Assembly: GCA_903906315.1 (NCBI GenBank) | Contig: CAIVJW010000267.1 | Location: 1 to 64,000 of the forward strand | Reading direction: 5' to 3' | Length of the DNA: 64,000 nt | Source of the DNA: an uncultured delta proteobacterium | GTDB lineage: Bacteria; Myxococcota_A; Polyangia; Polyangiales; Polyangiaceae | Shown here: in pieces, positions 19,767-33,178 of the stretch | Position numbering within the stretch: position 1 is the first letter of the stretch | Layout of the letters: each line of letters opens with the position of its first letter | Notes under the pieces: model-generated | The model's input: the letters and a program-made list of their open reading frames with translations, nothing else | What the model was told of the DNA's origin: nothing | Databases searched by the model: none | Program-made: the position numbers and the translations under genes

Positions 19767-21959
19767 TCAGCTATGCCCGGCGATCGCGACCGCCAGCACC
19801 GCGAGGACGACCGCCGCGACGAGCACGCCGACCACGACGACCCCGCGTCGGTGAACCCTGGGGTCGAACGCGCCGTGCAGGAGCTCGACCTCGTCGAGCC
19901 GTGCGCGCGCGACCACGATCGAGGCGTCCGCGGCGGCGAGCACCGCGCGCTGCGCGCCCGAGACCGCGCCGGGGCACCAGTCGAGGATCTGCTCGCCGGC
20001 GCGGACGAACGCCTCGCGGCGCTCGCCCTCGCGAAAGCCCCGCATCTCGGCCAACCGCTGCGCGCCACGGTCCTCGAGGCGCTGCTTCTGGCGCTCGAGA
20101 TCGGCGACCTCCGCGTCGACCGCGTCGAGCCGGCCCTGCGCCCCGTCGCGCGCCGCGAGCGCCGACGCCTCCTCGGCCCGCAGGCGGTCGAGCTCCTCCA
20201 CGCGGATCGATCGTTCGCTCTCCCCCGGCCCCCCGATCGCCGGCGGCCGACCGCTCGCCCGAGCGGCGTTCTCGGTGGCTCGCCGCTCGATCTCCACCCG
20301 CTTCTGGCGCGCCTCGGCGCGGGTCCGCTCGTCCGAGACGCGCAGATGGAGGTCGGCGTATTCGCGCGCGTGCGCGGCCGCGGCGAGCCTCCGGGGCATC
20401 ACGGCGGCGAGCGCCTCGTTGACGTCCGCCGCCCACTGAAGCTCGAACGGCTGCTGGCTCGGATCGGCGGGGCCCGTGCGGTACCGATGCAGCGGGGCGA
20501 GCCACGGGGCGAGCGGATCGCCGGGCGCGGGGCTCACGGGCAGCGAGTCGACGAGCTGCACGAGCGCGTCGCGGCGCCCCTCCTGCGCGGCGACGAGCTC
20601 GGCCCGCGCGGTGACCAGACCGCGCTCGAGCGCCCCCCGGCGAAGGAGCACGCGCACGGAGTACGCCGCCGCCCCGAGCAGCGTGCGCGGCGGCGCCCCG
20701 TAGCCCTCCGGCGCGGTCGAGCGCGCTGCGCTCACCCCCGACGGGACGGCGACCGCAGCCGGCGCGACGCGCGCGACCGCCGACGCCGACGAAGCCCCCC
20801 CCGGTGCGCGCGCGCGCGGGGTGGGCAGCGGGAGCGGGAACCGCAGGGTCTTGGTCTCCCCCTCCGCGCTCGGCGCGACCGCCGCCGCGCCCGACCGTGC
20901 CCCGACGGGCGCGGGCGCCGCTATCGGCGAACGGGCCGCGCGCTCGCGCAGCGTCGCCGAAAACGCCACCTCGCCGATCTCGCGCACGACCGCCTCGCGC
21001 TCGGCCAGCCGATCGTGCGCTACCGTCGCGAGCCACGCCCCGACCTGAGCCGGCGTCGCGGGCCGGATCGCTTGCTCGAGCGCGGTCGCCATCTCGAGCG
21101 CCGTCGCGAAGCGCGCGGCCGGATCGCGCTCGAGCCCGCGCATCACGGCCGCGTCGAGCCCGGGCGTGACGCCCGTGACCCGCGCCGAGGGCCGCTCCAC
21201 CGGCTTCTCGAGGATCTGGTAGATGACCTCGGCGTCGCTGTCGGCGTCGAAGAGGCGCTCGCCGACGAGCGCCTCCCACAGCACGACGCTCGCGGTGAAC
21301 ACGTCGGTCCTCCGGTCGACGGACCCCCGTTTCAGCTGCTCGGGCGCGATGTAACCCATCTTGCCCTTCATCTGATCGGCGCGCGTCGTGTGCATCCGAC
21401 CGAGCGCCTTCGCGATGCCGAAGTCGAGCAGGCGCGTGATGCCGTCGAGCCCGACGAGCACGTTGTGCGGCGACACGTCGCGATGAACGATCGCGAGCGG
21501 CGAGCCGTCCTCGCCCCGCGCCTCGTGCGCCGCGTGCAGGCCGTGGAGCACCCCGATCACGATCGCGGCCGCGACCTGCACGGGCACGCGCCCGCCCACC
21601 GCGCGCGCCGCCCGCCCGAGGTACGCGAGCGACTCGCCCGGCACGTATTCCATCACCAGGAACACGGCGCCGTCCTGCGAGGCGACGTCGAGCGTCGGGA
21701 TCACGTTGACGTGGCGGATGCACGTCGCGATGCGCGCCTCGTCGAGGAACATCGCCGAGAAATCCGGGTCGGCGGCGAGGTTCGGGTGCAGCCGCTTCAC
21801 CGCGACGATGCGTGAAAGGCCGGTCGCTCCCACCCAGCGGGCGAGGTGCACGCTCGCCATGCCGCCCGCGCCGATCGGCTGCGAGAGCACGTAGCGCCCG
21901 AGCACCTCGGCGGCGGGCGCGGATCGCGGGGGGGGGCGGGGCGGAAGCGGGGGGGGCAT
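19767..21959 (-). CDS. Tail-anchored Hanks-type Ser/Thr protein kinase
   Basis: A 730-aa protein kinase. The catalytic domain (about residues 20-310) has every key motif: glycine loop GAGGMASVHLA, VAVKRLH lysine, catalytic loop HRDVSPHNVL, DFGIAK metal-binding Asp and MGYIAPEQ. A Pro/Ala-rich region follows, then a long predicted coiled coil (about 560-680, RAEARQKRVEIERR and DAEVADLERQKQRLED), and the chain ends in one membrane helix (GVVVVGVLVAAVVLAVLAVAI) with only four residues after it. So there is no extracytoplasmic sensor and the protein should face the cytoplasm. ATG at 21957-21959 is chosen over an upstream in-frame start because the extra residues are Arg-rich and unlike a kinase N-terminus. 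The coiled coil probably mediates oligomerisation. Confidence 0.88.
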   Translation of the reverse strand: MPPPLPPRPPPRSAPAAEVLGRYVLSQPIGAGGMASVHLARWVGATGLSRIVAVKRLHPNLAADPDFSAMFLDEARIATCIRHVNVIPTLDVASQDGAVFLVMEYVPGESLAYLGRAARAVGGRVPVQVAAAIVIGVLHGLHAAHEARGEDGSPLAIVHRDVSPHNVLVGLDGITRLLDFGIAKALGRMHTTRADQMKGKMGYIAPEQLKRGSVDRRTDVFTASVVLWEALVGERLFDADSDAEVIYQILEKPVERPSARVTGVTPGLDAAVMRGLERDPAARFATALEMATALEQAIRPATPAQVGAWLATVAHDRLAEREAVVREIGEVAFSATLRERAARSPIAAPAPVGARSGAAAVAPSAEGETKTLRFPLPLPTPRARAPGGASSASAVARVAPAAVAVPSGVSAARSTAPEGYGAPPRTLLGAAAYSVRVLLRRGALERGLVTARAELVAAQEGRRDALVQLVDSLPVSPAPGDPLAPWLAPLHRYRTGPADPSQQPFELQWAADVNEALAAVMPRRLAAAAHAREYADLHLRVSDERTRAEARQKRVEIERRATENAARASGRPPAIGGPGESERSIRVEELDRLRAEEASALAARDGAQGRLDAVDAEVADLERQKQRLEDRGAQRLAEMRGFREGERREAFVRAGEQILDWCPGAVSGAQRAVLAAADASIVVARARLDEVELLHGAFDPRVHRRGVVVVGVLVAAVVLAVLAVAIAGHS

Positions 21960-22108
21960 CGTTCGGCGCACGGCGACCGCGCGGGAGGAACGCCATCGTA
22001 CGGGCACCCCGCGGGCAGGCCAACCCGCTCGTCCCCCGTCCACGCGCTCGTCGGTCTCCGACGCCGCACGCTTGCGAGGCCGCGCCGGGGCCCGGTAGGA
22101 TGCCGCTC

Positions 22109-23180: not shown

Positions 23181-23864
23181 GCCGAGCGCCGCGAACGCCG
23201 CGCGCAGCTCGTCCGGCCCGCGCGCCACCCGCCCGCGCGGGCCGAGATCGATCGCCGGATCGCCCCGGAACCAGATCGCGCTCATCCCCGCGCCGATCGC
23301 GCCGTCCACGTCCGCCGCACGCGAGTCACCGACGTGCACGACCTCGTCGATGCCCACCCCGAGCCGCTCCGCCGTCCACACGAAGATGGCGCGGTCCGGC
23401 TTCTCGATCCCGAGGCGCCCGGAGTCCGCAACCACCGGGAACAGGCCGAGCCACCCGAGCTCGTCGGCGAGCTCCGCGATGCGCCCCTCCGAGTTCGACA
23501 GCAGCGCGAGCGGGACCCCCGCCCCCGCGAGCTCCCTCACGACGTCGATCACGCCCGGGATCGGCCTCCTCCACAGGTTTTGCGCCGGCTGCTCGAGCCA
23601 CAGCCAGTCGGTGAGGTCCGCGACGCGACCGGCCGGCACCCCGGCGAGGTCGAGCAGGCGCGCCATGAGGATCTTCCACGGGTGGCCTCCGCCTCCGCCT
23701 CGGATGGCCGCGTCGTACGCGCCCCACGCGCCCGGCACCGCGGCCTCGACCCGATCCGGCGCCACCGCGACGCCGCGCTCCGCGACCCGCCGCGCGAGCA
23801 TGGCCGGGTCGAGCTCGGCGAGCGTCTGGCCGAAGTCGAACGACACCGCGCGCAGCGTGGTCAC
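23166..23864 (-). CDS. HAD-superfamily hydrolase
   Basis: A 232-aa hydrolase of the haloacid dehalogenase superfamily with a helical cap. Motif I is SFDFGQTLAEL; the nucleophile Asp is present, but the usual second Asp (+2, general acid in phosphatases) is Gly. Motif II is LLSNSEG, motif III Lys is in EKPDRAIF, and motif IV is VHVGDSRAADVDGA. GTG at 23862-23864 overlaps the stop of the upstream acyl-CoA synthetase gene by 4 bp, so translation is coupled. Its own stop overlaps the end of the convergent Nudix gene. Phosphatase or dehalogenase-like chemistry is possible; the Gly at +2 makes a standard phosphatase role less certain. Confidence 0.84.
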   Translation of the reverse strand: MTTLRAVSFDFGQTLAELDPAMLARRVAERGVAVAPDRVEAAVPGAWGAYDAAIRGGGGGHPWKILMARLLDLAGVPAGRVADLTDWLWLEQPAQNLWRRPIPGVIDVVRELAGAGVPLALLSNSEGRIAELADELGWLGLFPVVADSGRLGIEKPDRAIFVWTAERLGVGIDEVVHVGDSRAADVDGAIGAGMSAIWFRGDPAIDLGPRGRVARGPDELRAAFAALGLLPA

Positions 23865-25654
23865 TCGCCCTCGTACATGGACTCGATCTCGGTCGCGAAG
23901 TTCTGGTTCACGGCCTTGCGCTTGATCTTGAGCGTCGGAGTGAGCTCCCCGTGCTCGATCGTGAACGTCCGGTGGAGCACGCGGAAGCGCTTGATCTGCT
24001 CGACGCGCGCGACCGTCGCGTTGATCGCGTCGACGGCGCGCTGGATCTCGGCGTGGATCTCCTCGACCTCGTGCGGCCGCTGCGTCTCGCGCTTGCGGTC
24101 GGTGAGCCACTTCTTGGCGGCGTCGGGGTCGAGCGTGAGCAGCGCGGTGAGGTACTTCCTGCGGTCGCCGATGACGACCGCCTCCGCGACGAGCGGGTGG
24201 CTCTTGAGCGCGGCCTCGAGGTTCTTCGGCGCGACGTTCTTGCCGCCCGCGGTGATGAGGATCTCCTTCTTGCGTCCGGTGATCTTGAGGTACCCGTCCG
24301 CGTCGAACGCGCCGAGGTCGCCCGAGCACAGGTACCCGTCGCGCAGCGCCTCGGCCGTCGCGGCCGGGTCCTTGAAGTAGCCGAGGAACACGTTCGGCCC
24401 GCGCACGAGGATCTCGTCGTCGGGCGCGATCTTCACCTCGACCCCGGGGAACGTCGGGCCCACGGTGCCGAAGCGAGTGCGGCCGGGGCGGTTGAAGCTC
24501 GTCGGGCCCGTGTCCTCGGACTGGCCGTAGACCTCGTAGACGAGCACGTCGAGCGACGCGAAGAACTCGAGGATCTCGGGCGCGATCGGCGCCGCTCCGC
24601 TGACGCACATGTGCGCGCGGCCGAGGCCGACGGCGGGCTTGAGCTTGGAGAAGACGAGCCGGTTCGCGATCGCGTACTCGACGGCGAGGAGCCCGCGCGG
24701 CTCGCGCCCGACGCAGCGCTCGGCCGACGCCCGCGCGCCCACGCCGCGCGCCCACGCCGCGAGCCGCTTCTTCAGGCCCTTGGCTTCGGAGAGCTTGCCC
24801 GCGATGCCGGCATGGAACTTCTCCCAGATGCGCGGCACGCCGAAGAAGATCGTCGGCTGCACGTCCTTCAGGTCCTCGGGGACCTTGTCGAGCGATCGCG
24901 CGAAGTAGATCGCCGATCCCATCGTCGCCGGCCCGTGGATCGTGAAGACCTGCTCGGCGATGTGCGACAGCGGCAGGTAGGAGAGGCTCACGTCCGTCGG
25001 TCCGCCGCCGACGAGCTCGACGGCCCGCGAGGCCGTCCACGCCAGGTTCTCGTGCGAGAGCATGACGCCCTTGGGCGGCCCGGTGGTCCCCGACGTGTAG
25101 ATGAGCGTCGCGAGGCCCGCGGGCTCGAGCGCGGCCGCGAGCTCGTCGACGCGCGCGTCGGGCGTCCCCTCCGCGTGGGCGAGGAAGACCTCCCAGGTGT
25201 GCACCTGGAACGGCGTCGAGTGCTCGGGGACCGCGACGCCCCGCATGAGCACCACGTGCCGGAGGTGCGGGAGCCGCGCGGCCTCGCGCTCGACCTTGCG
25301 CCACTGGTCGAGGTCCTCGACGAGCACGACGGGCGATTCGGCGTGGTCGACGATGTACGCCACCTCCTCGGGCGAGCAGGTGGCGTAGATCCCCGCGGGC
25401 GCCGCGCCGACCGCCATGGTCGCGAGGTCGAACACGACCCACTCCGACCGGTTGAAGCCGAGGATCGCGGTCGTCCCGCCCGGTCGCACACCGAGCGCCA
25501 CGAGCGCCCGGGCGGCGACGCGCACCTCCGCGGCGTACTCGGCCCAGGTCGTGCGGCTCCACGAGGCGCCGCGGTGGGTAAAGTGCGCAGGCGCGTCCGG
25601 CCGCCGGCGTGCCTGGTCGAAGAGTCGAGCGACGATCGTATCGACAGAGCCCAT
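23861..25654 (-). CDS. Long-chain acyl-CoA synthetase (AMP-forming)
   Basis: A 597-aa enzyme of the ANL superfamily that activates fatty acids with ATP to acyl-AMP and then acyl-CoA. The P-loop-like motif YTSGTTGPPKGV, the motif YGQSEDTGP (aryl/fatty acid binding), the hinge SGDLGAFDADGYLKITGRKKE and the C-terminal catalytic Lys region (PTLKIKRKAV) are all present. It resembles the FadD15/long-chain group with a LSYLPLSHIAEQ motif. ATG at 25652-25654 is chosen because the 30 codons before it are Arg-rich and it follows TAGG. The upstream spacer holds an unusually AT-rich patch (TATTGT) that could be its -10. It is coupled to the downstream HAD gene. Confidence 0.9.
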   Translation of the reverse strand: MGSVDTIVARLFDQARRRPDAPAHFTHRGASWSRTTWAEYAAEVRVAARALVALGVRPGGTTAILGFNRSEWVVFDLATMAVGAAPAGIYATCSPEEVAYIVDHAESPVVLVEDLDQWRKVEREAARLPHLRHVVLMRGVAVPEHSTPFQVHTWEVFLAHAEGTPDARVDELAAALEPAGLATLIYTSGTTGPPKGVMLSHENLAWTASRAVELVGGGPTDVSLSYLPLSHIAEQVFTIHGPATMGSAIYFARSLDKVPEDLKDVQPTIFFGVPRIWEKFHAGIAGKLSEAKGLKKRLAAWARGVGARASAERCVGREPRGLLAVEYAIANRLVFSKLKPAVGLGRAHMCVSGAAPIAPEILEFFASLDVLVYEVYGQSEDTGPTSFNRPGRTRFGTVGPTFPGVEVKIAPDDEILVRGPNVFLGYFKDPAATAEALRDGYLCSGDLGAFDADGYLKITGRKKEILITAGGKNVAPKNLEAALKSHPLVAEAVVIGDRRKYLTALLTLDPDAAKKWLTDRKRETQRPHEVEEIHAEIQRAVDAINATVARVEQIKRFRVLHRTFTIEHGELTPTLKIKRKAVNQNFATEIESMYEGE

Positions 25655-25773
25655 GGGACCTACAACAATACGAAAAGGATCCGTTCTCAACCAGGGCTGC
25701 CACGGGCGACGCGCGGCGCGTCCGCTGGCCGCGGAAAACCGCACCTAGTGTTGCCTAAATGGCGATCCGAGAC

Positions 25774-25802
25774 TTGACGGAGCAAGGCTACGCTTCTTAA
25801 CT
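25774..25802 (+). promoter_or_regulatory. Sigma70-type promoter for the kinase-receiver operon
   Basis: TTGACG (25774-25779) and TTAACT (25797-25802) are separated by 17 bp, in an AT-rich island between divergent genes. The predicted start is around 25809, giving a 36-nt leader containing the ribosome site GGGGGGAG before GTG 25845. The -35 matches the housekeeping consensus at 5 of 6 positions; the -10 is weaker. Confidence 0.45.
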
Positions 25803-25844
25803 ACTCGCGGCCGCGACCACCGAGGCTGCGATGGGGGGAGTCAC

Positions 25845-27506
25845 GTGGAGCCCGAGAAGCACGACGAGCGAGGGCCGACGCCTGAGGCGCGGCCGGTGAC
25901 GTCCGGAACGGACGCCGGAGCGTGGGCAGGGCCGCAGACCGGCTCGCTCCTCGACGGCACGTACCGCATCCTCCGCCCGCTCGGCGAGGGGGGGATGGGC
26001 CTCGTGCTGCTCGCCCGCGACGAGCGCCTCGACCGCGAGGTCGCCATCAAGGTGATCCGCCCGGATTGCCCCGACTACGAGGGGCGGCTCATCGACGAGG
26101 CGCGCGCGATGGCCCGCGTGCACCACCAGAACGTCGTCGAGATCTTCGCGTTCGGCAACTACGCGGGCGCGGCCTACTTCGTGATGGAATACCTGCCGTC
26201 GGAGACGCTCGACGCCTGGTGCGCCCGCCACCGCGGGCCGCCGGTCCCGGCCGAAGACGTGCTCCGCATCCTGGATCCGGTCTGCCAGGGCGTCGCGGCC
26301 ATCCACGCCTCCGACACCACCCACCGGGACCTGAAGCCGTCGAACATCCTCATCGGCGCCGGCTTCCGGGTGATGGTGGCAGACCTCGGGCTCGCGCAGG
26401 CGATCGCGCCGTGGTCGGGCCTCGACGGGCGCGACACCGTCTCCGGCACCCCGGAGTACATCGCGCCCGAGGTGGCGACGCAGAAGGACGTGGCGCCGCA
26501 CCTGCGATCGCGGGCCGACGTGTACGCGCTCGGCGTGATCGCGTTCGAGCTGCTCACGGGGCGGCTGCCGTTCGTGTCGGACAACCCGATCGAGCTCCTG
26601 CGCATGCACGCGCTGCGTCCGCCGCCGTCGCCTCGGTCGATCCGGCCGGAGCTGCCCCCGGCGGTCGACGACGTCCTGCTCCACGCGCTCGAGAAGGACC
26701 CGGTGAACCGGACGGCGAGCGCGACCGCGTTCCGCAAGGCGCTCGAGCGCGCGCTCAGCCCGCACGTGGAGGAGGACGGCCCGGTCCGCAAGGCGAGCGT
26801 GCCGGCGTTCCGGTCGCCGGCGCCCGCGACACTGAGCCCCCCGGCAGGGACCCCGGCGGCCGACCGCGTCATCGCGGACGGCCCGGTCCGCCCTCCTCCT
26901 GCACGGGCGCCGCGCCACGACTCGCCGCCCCCGGCGCGGCTGGGCTCGCCCCACCTCGACACGGCGGACCTCTGGCAGCCCGCGTTCCCGCCGCCGTCGA
27001 GCCAGCCGCCCGGCAGCCTGGGGATGCGGCCAAGCGCGCCCGCGCCTGCCACCCGCAGCTCGGTCCGGCCCGGGCGCAGCGTTGCACGCGCGATGCGCTT
27101 CCTGGTCGCCGATGACGATGAGCACGTCCGTGGCGTCGTCTCGCGGGTGCTCGCCCGGACGTTCCCGGAGGCGGTCGTCGAGGCCGTGGCCGACGGCACG
27201 AAGGCGCTCGCCAGCCTCGAGTGGCACACGCCGACGCTGGCGCTCATCGACCTCGACATGCCGGGGATGAACGGCATCGAGGTCGTCGCGTCGCTGCGTT
27301 CGCTGCGATCGGCGCGCGACATGGCGATCGTGGTCATCACGGGCACGGGGACGCCGTCGGATCTGCGACTGCTGCAGCAACTGGGCGCCCAGGCGTTCCT
27401 GGTGAAGCCCTTCCACCCCTCGCAGCTCATCGCCACCGTCCGCGAGATCCTGAGCGAGATCGAGGCCGGAGGTGGCGACCCGGCGGACACGTCCGACCGG
27501 CGATGA
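25845..27506 (+). CDS. Ser/Thr protein kinase fused to a response-regulator receiver domain
   Basis: A 553-aa cytoplasmic protein. The kinase domain (about residues 38-300) has GEGGMGLVLLA, VAIKVIR, HRDLKPSNIL and TPEYIAPEV; the metal-binding motif reads DLG rather than DFG, a substitution seen in active kinases. A disordered Pro-rich linker (about 305-420) joins it to a complete receiver domain (about 428-545) with acidic pair DDD, phospho-acceptor in LIDLDMPGMNG, Thr in VITGTG and Lys in LVKPF. A protein kinase is thus physically linked to a two-component input. The GTG start at 25845 has a strong upstream GGGGGGAG. The stop overlaps the next gene (ATGA), a receiver-kinase-receiver hybrid that could phosphorylate this receiver. 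Confidence 0.9.
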   Translation: MEPEKHDERGPTPEARPVTSGTDAGAWAGPQTGSLLDGTYRILRPLGEGGMGLVLLARDERLDREVAIKVIRPDCPDYEGRLIDEARAMARVHHQNVVEIFAFGNYAGAAYFVMEYLPSETLDAWCARHRGPPVPAEDVLRILDPVCQGVAAIHASDTTHRDLKPSNILIGAGFRVMVADLGLAQAIAPWSGLDGRDTVSGTPEYIAPEVATQKDVAPHLRSRADVYALGVIAFELLTGRLPFVSDNPIELLRMHALRPPPSPRSIRPELPPAVDDVLLHALEKDPVNRTASATAFRKALERALSPHVEEDGPVRKASVPAFRSPAPATLSPPAGTPAADRVIADGPVRPPPARAPRHDSPPPARLGSPHLDTADLWQPAFPPPSSQPPGSLGMRPSAPAPATRSSVRPGRSVARAMRFLVADDDEHVRGVVSRVLARTFPEAVVEAVADGTKALASLEWHTPTLALIDLDMPGMNGIEVVASLRSLRSARDMAIVVITGTGTPSDLRLLQQLGAQAFLVKPFHPSQLIATVREILSEIEAGGGDPADTSDRR

Positions 27507-29077
27507 GCCAAGCCCGGGCGCCCGTGCGCGTGCTGCTCGTCGAGGACATCGCGGAGGACGCGGCGCTCGTCGAGCACCTCCTGTCGCGCGCGGCGGGGAC
27601 GACGTTCGCCGTGCAGCGCGCGGAGTTCGTGCGCGAGGCGATCGACCGATTGCAAGCCGAGGCCGTCGACATCGTGCTGCTCGACCTCGGGCTGCCCGAC
27701 GCCCTGGGCCTGTCGGGCCTCGACCGTGTGCTCGCCGTCGCGCCGACGGTGCCCGTCGTCGTCATGACCGGCGCGGAGCGCGACGAGCTCTCGGCCCAAG
27801 CGCTCGTCCGCGGGGCCGAGGACTTCCTCGTCAAGGGCGAGATGGGCAGCGACGCGCTCGCCCGGTCAATCCGGTACTCCATCGCGCGAAAGCGCGCCGA
27901 GCTCGCCCTGCGGCGCACGCACGAGCAGCTGCGAACCTCGCAGAAGATGGAGGCCATCGGCCGGCTCGCGGGCGGCCTCGCGCACGACCTGAACGGCGTG
28001 GTCACGGCCATCCTCGGGTACGCGGACCTGGTCGCCGAGGCGACGCCCGAGGACGACGTGCGCCGCGCCGACATCGACGAAATCCGCCGCGCCGGCGAGC
28101 GCGCCGCGTCGCTTACGCGACAGGTGCTGGCGTTCAGCCGGCGCGAGATCACCCACCCCCAGGTGCTCTCGTTCGACGCGGTGGTGGGCGACCTGACGCG
28201 GATGCTGAGGCGGCTCATCGGTGGGCACATCGCGCTGCGCGTGGAGCTCCGCGCCGACCACGCGTTCGTGCTCGCCGACCCGAGCCAGATCGAGCAGGTC
28301 GTGATGAACCTCGTGCTGAACGCGCGCGACGCGCTGCTCGGCGGAGGGACGGTGAACGTCCGGACGGCGGTCGTCGACGGCGGACCGGAGGGCACCACGG
28401 CCGCCGGGCGCTCGGCTACTGGGCCGCACGTGCGCATCGAGGTCGTGGATGACGGCACGGGCATGTCGTCCGAGACGATGGCGAGGATCTTCGAGCCCTT
28501 CTTCACGACGAAGGAGCTCGGCAAGGGCACGGGCCTCGGCCTCGCGACGGTGCATCGGATCGTCGAACAGCTCGGCGGGTGCATTCAGGTCGAGAGCTCG
28601 CCGGGCAAGGGTTCGGTGTTCCGCGCGTACCTGCCCCGCACGAGCGGCGCAGCGCCGACGGCCAACGTCGACAGCGCGCCCGCCACGGCGCGACGCGGGA
28701 CCGAGACCATCCTGGTGACGGACGGCGACGAGGGCGTGCGATCGCTGACCCGCCGGGTGCTCGAGCGCGTCGGCTACAAGGTCCTCGAGGCCGCCACCGC
28801 CGAGGAAGCGCTGCTGGTCGCAAACCACCACGACGGGGTCATCCACCTGCTCCTGACCGACGTGGTGCTGCCGGGCATCAGCGGGTCCGAGCTCGCGAAT
28901 CACATGCGCCGCGAGCGACCGGAGGCGCGGGTGCTCTACACGTCGGGGTACGCGGCGTCGGAGACTCCGCCGTTCGGGCTCGACCTGCGCGGCGGCTACC
29001 TCGAGAAGCCGTACCGCCCCGACGCGCTCGAGCGCGCGATCCGAGCGGTGCTCGACGCGCCGCCGCGGGGGCGCTGA
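27503..29077 (+). CDS. Receiver-histidine kinase-receiver hybrid
   Basis: A 524-aa soluble hybrid kinase. The N-terminal receiver has LLVED, acceptor Asp61 (LLDLGLPD), Thr in VMTGAE and Lys111. A short coiled segment leads to a dimerisation domain with GGLAHDLNG (His161; the usual HDFNN is HDLNG). The ATPase domain shows NLVLNARDAL, DDGTGM, FEPFFTTK and GTGLGLATV. The C-terminal receiver has TDGDE, LLTDVVLPG, YTSGYA and LEKPYRP. It starts at ATG 27503, overlapping the stop of the Ser/Thr kinase-receiver gene by 4 bp, so the two are coupled partners. The internal receivers suggest a phosphorelay; a separate histidine phosphotransferase is not in the window. Confidence 0.92.
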   Translation: MSQARAPVRVLLVEDIAEDAALVEHLLSRAAGTTFAVQRAEFVREAIDRLQAEAVDIVLLDLGLPDALGLSGLDRVLAVAPTVPVVVMTGAERDELSAQALVRGAEDFLVKGEMGSDALARSIRYSIARKRAELALRRTHEQLRTSQKMEAIGRLAGGLAHDLNGVVTAILGYADLVAEATPEDDVRRADIDEIRRAGERAASLTRQVLAFSRREITHPQVLSFDAVVGDLTRMLRRLIGGHIALRVELRADHAFVLADPSQIEQVVMNLVLNARDALLGGGTVNVRTAVVDGGPEGTTAAGRSATGPHVRIEVVDDGTGMSSETMARIFEPFFTTKELGKGTGLGLATVHRIVEQLGGCIQVESSPGKGSVFRAYLPRTSGAAPTANVDSAPATARRGTETILVTDGDEGVRSLTRRVLERVGYKVLEAATAEEALLVANHHDGVIHLLLTDVVLPGISGSELANHMRRERPEARVLYTSGYAASETPPFGLDLRGGYLEKPYRPDALERAIRAVLDAPPRGR

Positions 29078-29153: not shown

Positions 29154-30281
29154 TCATTGCCGGACCTTGCGCGGCTTGCGGGGCCGGCTTCGCGCGGGCT
29201 TCTCCGGCTTGTCGGGCGCGCCGGCGTCCTCCGCGGGGAGCGCCGCGCTCGCGCTGACGGCGGGCGACGGCCCGGGCGCCTCGAGCGCGCGGCTCCGCGC
29301 TCGGATCGCGATCAGGCGGTCGACCAGCGCCGCCGCGTCCTCCGCAGGCAAGGCGACGCGCCCGTGGAGGAGCTCGCCCTCGGGCTCGAGGCGCAGTCGC
29401 TCGAGCAGGGCGCCCACGCCGGCGAGCCGCAACATGGGATCGGCGGCCCTCGCCTGGCGAGCGGCCTCGAGCGAACGCGCAAGGTCGGCGCACGCGGCGG
29501 CCGCGTCGCACGTCACGACGGCGTGGACGGTCACCTCGGGCCCGAGGCGGAGCGACGCCCCCGCCGAGGTGATGGATGCCGTCGGCGAGGCCGCCGCGCC
29601 GGCGCCCCGCAGCTCGATCGCGAGGGTCTCCCGCTGCTCGGCGGTGAGCACGACGGTCGCGCGCAGCGCCCCCTCGCCGACCTCGCGCGAAAGCAGCGCG
29701 TGCGCGGGGCTGCCGCGCACCGCGCCGATCCGCCCCTCGGCAGCGTCGATCATCGAACGCAGGTACGTGCCTGCGCCGAGCAGCACGGGGCCGCCCTTCC
29801 GGACCGCGATCTCGCCGCCGGTGGAGGCCATCGTCGCATCGCGGACGCCCCGAAAGGTGCCGATCGGCGTCACGACCGGGCGACCGCCGCGCCGCTCGAT
29901 GACCTTCGACGCGCACGCGACGAGAGCCTCGTCGTCGACCGGTCCGGCCGCCACGAGCCCGAACTCGCCCGCTTCACCGTCCGCCGGCACGGAGACGGCG
30001 ATCTCGTGCAGCTTGTCGATCGGATCGAAGCCGCACACGTCGCGGACCGTGCCGAGCCCGGGGATCTCGCGGGACGACCGGAAGACCGGCGCGAACGCGG
30101 GCGAGGCGCGGAGGGCGTCGAGGTCGACGACGGCGACGAGCATGGCGCCGGCGGGCACCGCGTCGAGGGCGCTCGCGTGGAGGTCCGGCAGGCGCCGCCC
30201 ACGCGACAGCGCGGCGAGCCCGCCCGCCATCGCGAGGGCGACGGCGACGAGGACGATCGCGTTGCGGGAGCGCGTGTGCAC
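29154..30281 (-). CDS. Exported protein of unknown function
   Basis: A 375-aa protein with an N-terminal helix (AIVLVAVALAMAGGLAAL) that acts as signal or anchor; there is no lipobox Cys. The mature part alternates beta strands and helices (AGAMLVAVVDLDALRASPAF..., then a repeat-like VVLTAEQRETLAIEL) and ends in a highly basic tail (RPRKPRKVRQ). The N-terminal pattern resembles substrate-free DUF3352-like periplasmic proteins, but I cannot assign a family. It is convergent with the hybrid kinase gene and lies just downstream of a small membrane-protein gene on its own strand. Confidence 0.7.
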   Translation of the reverse strand: MHTRSRNAIVLVAVALAMAGGLAALSRGRRLPDLHASALDAVPAGAMLVAVVDLDALRASPAFAPVFRSSREIPGLGTVRDVCGFDPIDKLHEIAVSVPADGEAGEFGLVAAGPVDDEALVACASKVIERRGGRPVVTPIGTFRGVRDATMASTGGEIAVRKGGPVLLGAGTYLRSMIDAAEGRIGAVRGSPAHALLSREVGEGALRATVVLTAEQRETLAIELRGAGAAASPTASITSAGASLRLGPEVTVHAVVTCDAAAACADLARSLEAARQARAADPMLRLAGVGALLERLRLEPEGELLHGRVALPAEDAAALVDRLIAIRARSRALEAPGPSPAVSASAALPAEDAGAPDKPEKPARSRPRKPRKVRQ

Positions 30282-30610: not shown

Positions 30611-33178
30611 GTGATCGCGAACGACCTCGACCCCGCCGACCCCACCGGCACGCGCCGCGGCCACCTCGTGCTGGTGACGGATGCGTCGGCCGAAGGCGAG
30701 AGCATCGGATCGGCGCTGCGAGCGCGGGGCTTCCTCGTGGTCGACGTACCGCTCGGGCTGCTCGAGGCCCGCGTCGCGGGCGAGCGGCCGGACGCGCTCG
30801 TCATCGACATCGACGAGCCGGGCGCCTCCGAAGCGCTCGACCGCGTGCGCGAGCGGTCGGCAGGCGCGGCGGCCGAGGTCGTGTGCGTCGGCGACCCGAT
30901 CCGCGCGGCCGAGCTGGGCGTCGCAGCGGCGTTCGAGCGGCCGGTCGACATCGCTTCCCTCGTCGCGCACCTCGCGCGCGTGGTGGCGCCTGGCGAGCGC
31001 AGCCGGTGGCGAGCGCCGACCCAGCCGCCTTCGGCCCGCCCGATCCGCGAACGGCACGATCGACGCTCGGTGCCGCCGTCCCGCGGCGAGGCGCTCGGGA
31101 GCCTCGCGCCCCCCGCCATCGAGGACTGGCAGAGCTTCTCGCCCGGCACGCCCGGCGCCCTGCCGTCGTTCGCGGCGGCCGCGGTGGGCCCGGACGACGC
31201 GGACCCGGGGTCGGATCCGCTCGACCTCGCGTCGCTGCTCGAGGGCCGCGCCGACGGGTCGATCGGATCCGACCTGTCGCCAGAGGACCTGAGCCCGGAC
31301 CTCGCGGCGCTCCTCTCCGCAGCGGAACGCCGCGTGAGCGGCGGCGGGAGCGCGGCGAGCTTCCCGGCTCCCGCCGACGACCTCGATCTGGTGCTGCCGC
31401 CCGAGCTGCTCGCGATGCTCGACGAGCCCCTCGACGCGGACGGCGAAGGCGGCACGGGGAGCGCCGCAGGAACGGGCGACGCCGTCGCGAGCGTGACGCG
31501 CGGAGGGACGGGCGCGCTCTCGATCGCGGCGATGGCCTTCGACGGCTCGACGGGAGAGCACACCGCGCGCGATCCGGATCCGCGACGGGCGCAGCGGTCG
31601 CCGACCCCGCTTCCGCCCGACCGCACCGGCGCAGGATCGAGCGCGCCGGCGCTCACCGACACCGACGGAGCCGTCACCGTCGGCGGCGAGGAGCTCGCGG
31701 CGTCGAGCGCGACCGGACGGGGCACGGCTCCCTGGTCGATCACCCACACCGCTACGACGTTCAACCCGGAGATCGACGACCCGCGCCCCAGCAGCTTCCC
31801 CGCGTCGAGCGCGCCCCTCGATCGCTCGCGATCGACGCGCCCTCCGCCCCCCAGCGGCGGCGCCGATCACGACGAGCCGGACGCCCCCACGCTCGCGCAA
31901 AGGCCCAGCACCCACGCGCTGCCGCCGCCGCCATTTCCGCACCTGGAGCTCGGACCGTCCCCCGCTCCGCCGCTCGGCGCGCGCCACGCCGCGCGGCTCG
32001 CCCCCGGGTTCCAGCACGCGCCGCCGCTCGCCCCCGGGTTCCAGCACGCGCCGCCGCTCGACCGGCACTCGGAGGGCATGACGCCGTTCCCGCCCGAGCG
32101 AGCGACGAGCAGCCCCGCGCCCCCTCCGTCCGCGGCCGACCACGCCTTGCCGGCCGTGCTCGGCGAGGGCGACGCGCTGCGCACCCTCGGACGGGCGATC
32201 GCCGCCCGCGCGTCGGGGTCGCTCGCGCTCGCGGCCGACGCGGGCCCGCGCCGCATCGTGCTGCGTGACGGCGACGTGGTGACGGCGGGATCGGGCGTCA
32301 CCGACGAGACGCTCGCGGCGTTCCTCGCCGGTCGCGGGGACATCGACCGCGAGGTGGCGGTGCGCCTGGCGAGCAAGCTGCCGCCGTTCGGCCGACACGC
32401 CGGCGCAGCGCTCGTCGCCCACGGCCACCTCGGGCAGGACGACCTCTGGCCCGTGCTGCGCGCCCACGCCGAGTGGCTCATCGGCCGCGCGGTGATCGAG
32501 CCACGCGGCACGTGCGAGCTCGAGGACGAGCCACCCGGCCGCCTCAAGGCCGAACCGAGCGTGTTCGGTGGCGCGACGGGCGCCGAGGTGCTCGTCGAGA
32601 CGGTGCGACGCGTGCTGACGCCGCTCGAGGCATTGCACCGCCTCGGCGGCCCCGACGCGCGCCTCGAGGAGGGCGCGCGCGTCGGCCTGCTCGGCGAGTG
32701 CGCGCTGCGCCCCGACGACGCCGAAGCCGTGCGCGCCGCGGCGGGGCGCACGGTCGCCGAGGCGCTGCAAGGGCACGACCCGGTGCTCGCGAACGTGCTG
32801 TACGCGCTCACGGCGCTCGGCGTCCTCGACGCGCACGCCGAGGCGCCCAGGGCGCCGACGCGGGCGAAGGCCCCGGACGATCCGCTCGACGCGGAGGCGC
32901 TCCGCCAGCGCGTGCGCGCCCGCATGGCGCTCGTCGACGACGGCGACTACTTCGCGCTGCTCGGCGTGCCGCGATCGGCGACAAGCTACGAGGTCCGCCG
33001 CGCGTACCTGGAGCTGCGCCGGAGCCTCGAGCCCGGTCGCGTGCTCACCGCGGCCACCGCCGACCTCGGCGACGACCTCCGGCTCATCCTCGAGGTGCTC
33101 GACGAGGCCTACGAGATCCTGCGCGAGCCGCACCGACGCGACCGATACCGCAAGGCAATCGAGGTCGGGCCGCCATAG
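30611..33178 (+). CDS. Receiver-like / PATAN / degenerate J-domain protein
   Basis: An 855-aa cytoplasmic protein with three folded parts. The N-terminal part (about 17-125) looks like a receiver (VLVTDAS, acceptor-like LVIDIDEPG), but the conserved Lys is replaced (FERPVD) and the Ser/Thr is missing, so phosphorylation is doubtful. A long disordered Pro/Ser/Ala region (130-515) contains an exact tandem repeat. A PATAN (DUF4388)-type domain follows (about 520-720, LGRAIAARASGSLAL, RRIVLRDGDVVTA). The C-terminus (about 778-850) is a J-domain fold (YFALLGVPRSATSYEVRRAYLELRR...ILEVLDEAYEILREPHRRDRYR), but the HPD motif that stimulates Hsp70 reads LEP. It is convergent with a Clp-type ATPase gene 48 bp away. 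Likely a regulatory or scaffold protein. Confidence 0.82.
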   Translation: MIANDLDPADPTGTRRGHLVLVTDASAEGESIGSALRARGFLVVDVPLGLLEARVAGERPDALVIDIDEPGASEALDRVRERSAGAAAEVVCVGDPIRAAELGVAAAFERPVDIASLVAHLARVVAPGERSRWRAPTQPPSARPIRERHDRRSVPPSRGEALGSLAPPAIEDWQSFSPGTPGALPSFAAAAVGPDDADPGSDPLDLASLLEGRADGSIGSDLSPEDLSPDLAALLSAAERRVSGGGSAASFPAPADDLDLVLPPELLAMLDEPLDADGEGGTGSAAGTGDAVASVTRGGTGALSIAAMAFDGSTGEHTARDPDPRRAQRSPTPLPPDRTGAGSSAPALTDTDGAVTVGGEELAASSATGRGTAPWSITHTATTFNPEIDDPRPSSFPASSAPLDRSRSTRPPPPSGGADHDEPDAPTLAQRPSTHALPPPPFPHLELGPSPAPPLGARHAARLAPGFQHAPPLAPGFQHAPPLDRHSEGMTPFPPERATSSPAPPPSAADHALPAVLGEGDALRTLGRAIAARASGSLALAADAGPRRIVLRDGDVVTAGSGVTDETLAAFLAGRGDIDREVAVRLASKLPPFGRHAGAALVAHGHLGQDDLWPVLRAHAEWLIGRAVIEPRGTCELEDEPPGRLKAEPSVFGGATGAEVLVETVRRVLTPLEALHRLGGPDARLEEGARVGLLGECALRPDDAEAVRAAAGRTVAEALQGHDPVLANVLYALTALGVLDAHAEAPRAPTRAKAPDDPLDAEALRQRVRARMALVDDGDYFALLGVPRSATSYEVRRAYLELRRSLEPGRVLTAATADLGDDLRLILEVLDEAYEILREPHRRDRYRKAIEVGPP
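31997..32056 (+). repeat. Exact 30-bp tandem duplication inside the J-like gene
   Basis: Positions 31997-32026 and 32027-32056 are identical and encode LAPGFQHAPP twice within the disordered region. It is in frame and so does not break the protein. It looks recent, since no base has changed. Confidence 0.85.

Follow-up and report, generated by a model that had tools for sequence, protein, structure and literature searches.

A Ser/Thr kinase–receiver fusion whose gene overlaps that of a hybrid histidine kinase belongs to a conserved family of the Polyangia

The locus discussed here lies in a 64,000-nucleotide stretch of DNA from an uncultured delta proteobacterium of the class Polyangia, which we refer to as the window. 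On its forward strand it holds a gene for a protein of 553 residues (25845..27506, GTG start), preceded by an SD-like GGGGGGAG at 25833-25840 that was recognised by direct reading. The protein joins a Hanks/PknB-like kinase domain (aa 40-294, 25962..26726) to a receiver domain (aa 418-533, 27096..27443), both delimited by Pfam and alignment, through a Pro/Ala-rich linker of 122 aa (aa 296-417, 26730..27095), which was placed by alignment and AlphaFold and is predicted to be disordered. Pkinase (PF00069) matches aa 40-294 with an E-value of 6e-41 and 141 bits against a cut-off of 31.7, and the motifs GxGxxG (47-52), Lys69, Glu85, HRD (160-162), DLG (180-182) and APE (207-209) include the Lys, Glu, HxD and DxG that, together with such a match, mark a Hanks-type kinase in sequence. 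Response_reg (PF00072) matches aa 420-532 with an E-value of 5.5e-21, well above the Pfam cut-off, and the residues that define a receiver are present as well: an acidic pair (Asp423/Asp424), the phospho-acceptor Asp469 (codon 27249-27251), Thr499 at the Thr/Ser position, and Lys521. Judged by its intact catalytic residues the fusion is a predicted Ser/Thr kinase, and the complete Hanks kinase and complete receiver in one chain that an earlier note on this DNA had described are borne out by two Pfam matches over their cut-offs. Chance would not produce two full-length domains, each with its complete set of catalytic residues, in a fusion kept in about 50 other proteins.

The closest solved kinase folds are of the bacterial PknB type (Foldseek E 6.8e-24, 34% identity; profile E 1.5e-74). 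PknB itself has no fused receiver, unlike the window protein, and in the best 60 solved chains the match to the fusion profile was confined to its kinase part. AlphaFold models both domains of the window protein confidently, with their arrangement not clearly resolved (pTM 0.65), and the same is true of an orthologue with a short linker (pTM 0.76).

Directly behind the fusion follows a gene for a histidine kinase of 524 aa (27503..29077, forward strand, ATG start). Its ATG (27503-27505) and the TGA of the fusion (27504-27506) overlap by 4 bp as ATGA (27503..27506, direct reading), just as the earlier note had stated. The span of 25774-29077 that this note gave for the pair is right at its end; the fusion gene begins 71 bp later than claimed, at 25845, and position 25774 lies upstream and out of frame. 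Direct reading of the 23 bases preceding the hybrid's ATG revealed no SD-like sequence, which fits coupled translation, and the two proteins are probably co-translated; a 4-bp gene overlap by itself is a common operon feature.

The second protein has the order REC1-HisKA-HATPase-REC2, and thus combines in one chain what defines a hybrid histidine kinase: HisKA with its His, HATPase_c and a receiver. REC1 (aa 9-114, 27527..27844) is intact, with Glu14, Asp15, Asp61, Thr89 and Lys111. It is followed by HisKA (aa 136-218, 27908..28156), HATPase_c (aa 259-380, 28277..28642) and REC2 (aa 405-518, 28715..29056), and a domain scan recognised no sensor domain. His161 (codon 27983-27985) had been named as the phospho-acceptor site, and the sequences agree, with His at this position in 29/29 relatives. 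REC2 was compared with the same number of relatives in rows built by tblastn. It retains Asp453, Ser481 and Lys502, but its acidic pair is Asp407-Gly408, where 29/29 relatives have Glu-Asp. It reads TDG where the relatives mostly read VED, and since several neighbouring residues differ, a single sequencing error is unlikely. The second acidic residue of receivers is a direct metal ligand, and receivers without key residues are termed pseudo-receivers (PMC12632262); under this definition REC2, with Gly408 in place of the Asp of a complete active site, is a probable pseudo-receiver. This also sets the protein apart from the hybrid histidine kinases and hybrid response regulators whose REC-HisKA-HATPase-REC order it shares, and whose N-terminal REC is phosphorylated by another histidine kinase (PMC9239204). 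The description as a receiver-kinase-receiver hybrid hence stands for the domain order and falls for an intact second receiver.

Both flanking genes lie on the opposite strand: one at 23861-25744, which on inspection we take to be an acyl-CoA synthetase, and one for a 375-aa protein at 29154-30281. They provide no clue to the substrates of the kinase. Further off, an 855-aa protein (30611-33178) matches DUF4388 and, at its C-terminus, DnaJ, in both cases weakly and under the Pfam cut-off, and its N-terminus looks receiver-like without Pfam support; a second Hanks kinase gene without a receiver domain (19767-22043, minus strand, 758 aa) lies 4 kb away. Promoters and terminators were not found by consensus, and a plasmid search returned partial matches only, the top ones within the histidine kinase gene.

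Is such a fusion peculiar to this organism? The source genome (8.8 Mb, 455 contigs) contains about 145 Ser/Thr kinase matches among the best 150 scored, and a single kinase-receiver fusion at the receiver-query threshold used. Orthologous fusions occur in 22/98 genomes of the family (receiver query, 1e-20), 38/183 of the order (1e-24) and 55/377 of the phylum (full-length profile, 1e-90; a count that takes in the weakest profile matches without one-by-one inspection), all inside the window's class. As far as sequence comparison goes, the fusion is therefore not unique but part of a conserved family that is widespread in the class. All 53 aligned fusions retain receiver residues Asp424, Asp469, Thr/Ser499 and Lys521, and at least 51 of them retain kinase residues Lys69, Glu85, Asp162 and Asp180, with gaps or a single substituted row accounting for the remainder; both active sites are thus conserved across the family, and both chemistries have been kept together. 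About 20 of the 53 carry HGD or HAD in place of HRD (window residue 161) and are non-RD kinases, and DLG often replaces DFG. Non-RD kinases are usually not switched through activation-loop phosphorylation.

In a kinase tree, a branch with SH-aLRT 98 separates 52 fusion kinase domains, the window's among them, from 34 other Ser/Thr kinases, 29 of which were taken from the source genome itself. The long linker had suggested that the window's fusion arose independently, which is not supported, as the window kinase domain falls inside the family. Within it, a quick kinase-only tree made the window, weakly, the sister of genus g20 (SH-aLRT 85), a placement we dropped since the more careful kinase+receiver tree does not place the window row firmly. 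The latter tree sets fusions linked to histidine kinases apart from those linked to Hpt proteins, by a weak split (63/85).

Candidate phosphodonors were sought among neighbouring genes at 69 fusion loci, called with a simple codon model and then profile-scanned. Immediate neighbours contain HATPase/HisKA or Hpt in 32/135 cases, against 12/369 control genes at least two places from the fusion at the same loci (Fisher 3e-11). As loci are not independent, genera were also counted: a phosphodonor neighbour is present in 20/41, where about 6% per locus is expected. At 35/69 loci no phosphodonor or receiver gene is an immediate neighbour; for response regulators with an enzymatic output, a His-phosphate donor gene close by is the usual case but no strict requirement. 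For comparison, a same-strand HATPase lies within 2.6 kb of 3/144 other Ser/Thr kinase matches in the source genome, among the matches listed.

A recurrent neighbour, divergent from the fusion in several families, encodes a protein of about 250 residues that begins with a domain carrying an Hpt-like signature (AHxLRG) and ends in a receiver; it is found at L157 (3439-4152), L159 (5361-6092), L164 (3275-4009), L176 (2998-3795) and other loci. Pfam Hpt exceeds its cut-off at L159 (2.6e-9) and L176 (1e-5); at other loci the match is weaker or lacking, the Hpt domain of many members being too diverged. Elsewhere in the source genome no homologue of this Hpt-REC protein was found at 1e-12. Same-strand histidine kinases adjoin fusions in five genera. 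A REC-HisKA-HATPase kinase does so in genus g20 and genome G173, a PAS version overlaps the fusion by 4 bp in G150, and a related REC-histidine kinase is convergent with it in G174; these three REC-kinases are 44-50% identical to one another and the PAS version 37-54% to them.

Other arrangements were observed along the way. In four genomes of family f4, the fusion is immediately followed by a gene for about 257 aa whose N-terminus resembles that of a lipoprotein (L166:5407-6180, L173:4227-5024, L168:1531-2307, L172:4547-5311), in two of them with a 4-bp overlap; the one member scanned gave no Pfam match. In G164, two single-receiver genes (L180:6227-7038), chained by 4-bp overlaps, are located directly upstream. 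The kinase of the source genome nearest to the window's (L002, G000:C308:6739-10602; 45%, no receiver seen) likewise stands beside a same-strand histidine kinase gene, directly downstream of it.

The prediction that a His-phosphate donor phosphorylates the fusion receiver is well supported by these sequence data. Because family genes lie repeatedly beside such donors, the fusion probably feeds two-component signals directly into Ser/Thr phosphorylation, and on balance we favour reading the gene pair as the output end of a His-Asp phosphorelay with a Ser/Thr kinase as effector. Of the earlier proposal that the hybrid phosphorylates the attached receiver, the direction of transfer is upheld by a receiver that looks phosphorylatable throughout the family, by the enrichment of donors, and by histidine kinases of other subfamilies in the same position and on the same strand; the neighbouring histidine kinases belong to at least two subfamilies.

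But is the adjacent hybrid the donor? Alternatively, a distant histidine kinase or Hpt protein would phosphorylate the fusion receiver, and the hybrid would be there by chance and serve another pathway. The hybrid indeed comes from a very large histidine kinase family, with matches in 119/183 order genomes at 1e-70, and adjoins no other fusion found. It was rejected as an orthologue of the relatives' neighbouring kinases, being only 29-33% identical to any of them against 44-50% among the latter, and thus represents a subfamily of its own, which is very abundant. The nearest relatives have an adjoining kinase of another subfamily, at a gap of 91-118 bp, or none. A search for the pair in other Polyangia, as the earlier note had advised, accordingly recovers the fusion as a family of the class but the exact coupled pair in no other genome searched, all of them outside the window's genus. 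That note had counted the absence of overlap and fusion from close relatives against its reading; the overlap is absent there, the fusion is not. Orphan histidine kinases and response regulators are, moreover, common in myxobacteria (PMC8436480). Against a distant donor speak the 4-bp overlap without a separate SD, the histidine kinases at the same place in other genera and the degeneration of REC2, which suggests a target in trans, so that we consider it unlikely.

The second alternative arises from what distinguishes the window's protein within its family. Its linker of 122 aa, with pLDDT <50 at aa 315-413, compares with 16-69 aa in all relatives measured, and residue 507 in alpha4 of the receiver is Leu, where 52/52 aligned relatives have Trp. 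A short linker with an alpha4 Trp is typical of the order, although this Trp is not strictly defining, as some class-level paralogues do without it. Kinase residues Pro110 and Gly119, kept in 51/52 relatives, are Ala and Ser. In this one protein the losses of Trp, Pro and Gly go together with a long linker and could reflect a loosened contact between the domains; gating could be relaxed or lost here. The disordered linker and missing Trp would suit a receiver that serves the hybrid as a sink for phosphate or as a means of localisation, without gating the Ser/Thr kinase, which we nevertheless find rather improbable given that the kinase motifs are still intact and the fusion is retained across the class. 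Least credible is a reverse wiring, with the hybrid or its receivers as substrates that the fusion kinase modifies on Ser/Thr, and with the attached receiver as no more than a docking aid: Ser/Thr kinases that target two-component proteins are well known (PMC12189002), but this leaves unexplained both the receiver catalytic residues kept in every aligned fusion and the presence of Hpt-REC genes beside fusions in families that have no adjoining histidine kinase.

How might a relay through the adjacent hybrid proceed? The hybrid, in which no sensor domain is recognised, is probably controlled by another kinase via its N-terminal REC1 and, given its intact motifs, would autophosphorylate on His161. 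The phosphoryl group would then move to Asp469 of the fusion, a transfer that is favoured by the loss in REC2 and the probable co-translation. Without the acidic residue that binds the metal directly, REC2 would be a poor competing acceptor, and its loss points phosphoryl flow towards the kinase-linked receiver. Phosphorylation of Asp469 would alter the receiver's alpha4-beta5-alpha5 face, and the tethered kinase could in turn change in activity, in dimerisation or in its access to substrates; that the receiver gates the kinase is what we infer from this arrangement. Relatives with a short linker and the conserved alpha4 Trp may use direct docking, while tethering or receiver-driven dimerisation is more likely for the window protein, with its flexible linker of 122 residues and no Trp.

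Related designs are known from other systems. The best functional precedent, by analogy, is Pseudomonas aeruginosa PA3346, in which phosphorylation of the receiver by a histidine kinase stimulates the attached Ser/Thr phosphatase, so that here too a receiver switches a Ser/Thr signalling enzyme (PMC12189002). It differs in that the output is a phosphatase and the receiver N-terminal, and its histidine kinase PA2824 is not described there as co-translated. Fungal Rim15 is likewise a single chain in which a Ser/Thr kinase domain precedes a receiver at the C-terminus; the phospho-acceptor Asp is kept in non-Ascomycota members and missing from many Rim15 receivers, whose role has apparently never been studied (PMC8510515). 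The Rim15 kinase is eukaryotic, of the Greatwall family, whereas the window kinase is closest to bacterial PknB; the fusions are therefore independent and the resemblance is architectural only. For bacteria, a passage of the 2009 P2CS description lists 'probable' EC activities of Ser/Thr protein kinases among two-component proteins, so that the kind had been flagged computationally by then; in that passage such entries stand without family description, neighbours or function (PMC2716373). Our search of the open literature turned up no functional work on any bacterial fusion of this kind, and an earlier listing may exist.

We may go one step further, if tentatively. The class would possess an undescribed kind of response regulator with a Hanks-kinase output and exchangeable donors, Hpt-REC proteins in some families and REC- or PAS-type histidine kinases in others. 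In the window lineage a hybrid would have taken the donor's place, abandoning its own receiver for the kinase-linked one as terminal acceptor, which would have turned a relay within one protein into a two-protein His-Asp-Ser/Thr cascade.

For myxobacteria, the question of how Ser/Thr kinase networks are linked to two-component ones comes up repeatedly. These organisms possess hundreds each of two-component and Ser/Thr kinase proteins, and most described links consist of Ser/Thr kinases acting on two-component proteins. Two or three purified proteins would suffice for a direct test of the proposed wiring, and a family that carries a receiver on the kinase, with a likely donor adjoining, would run opposite to most of the links described so far.
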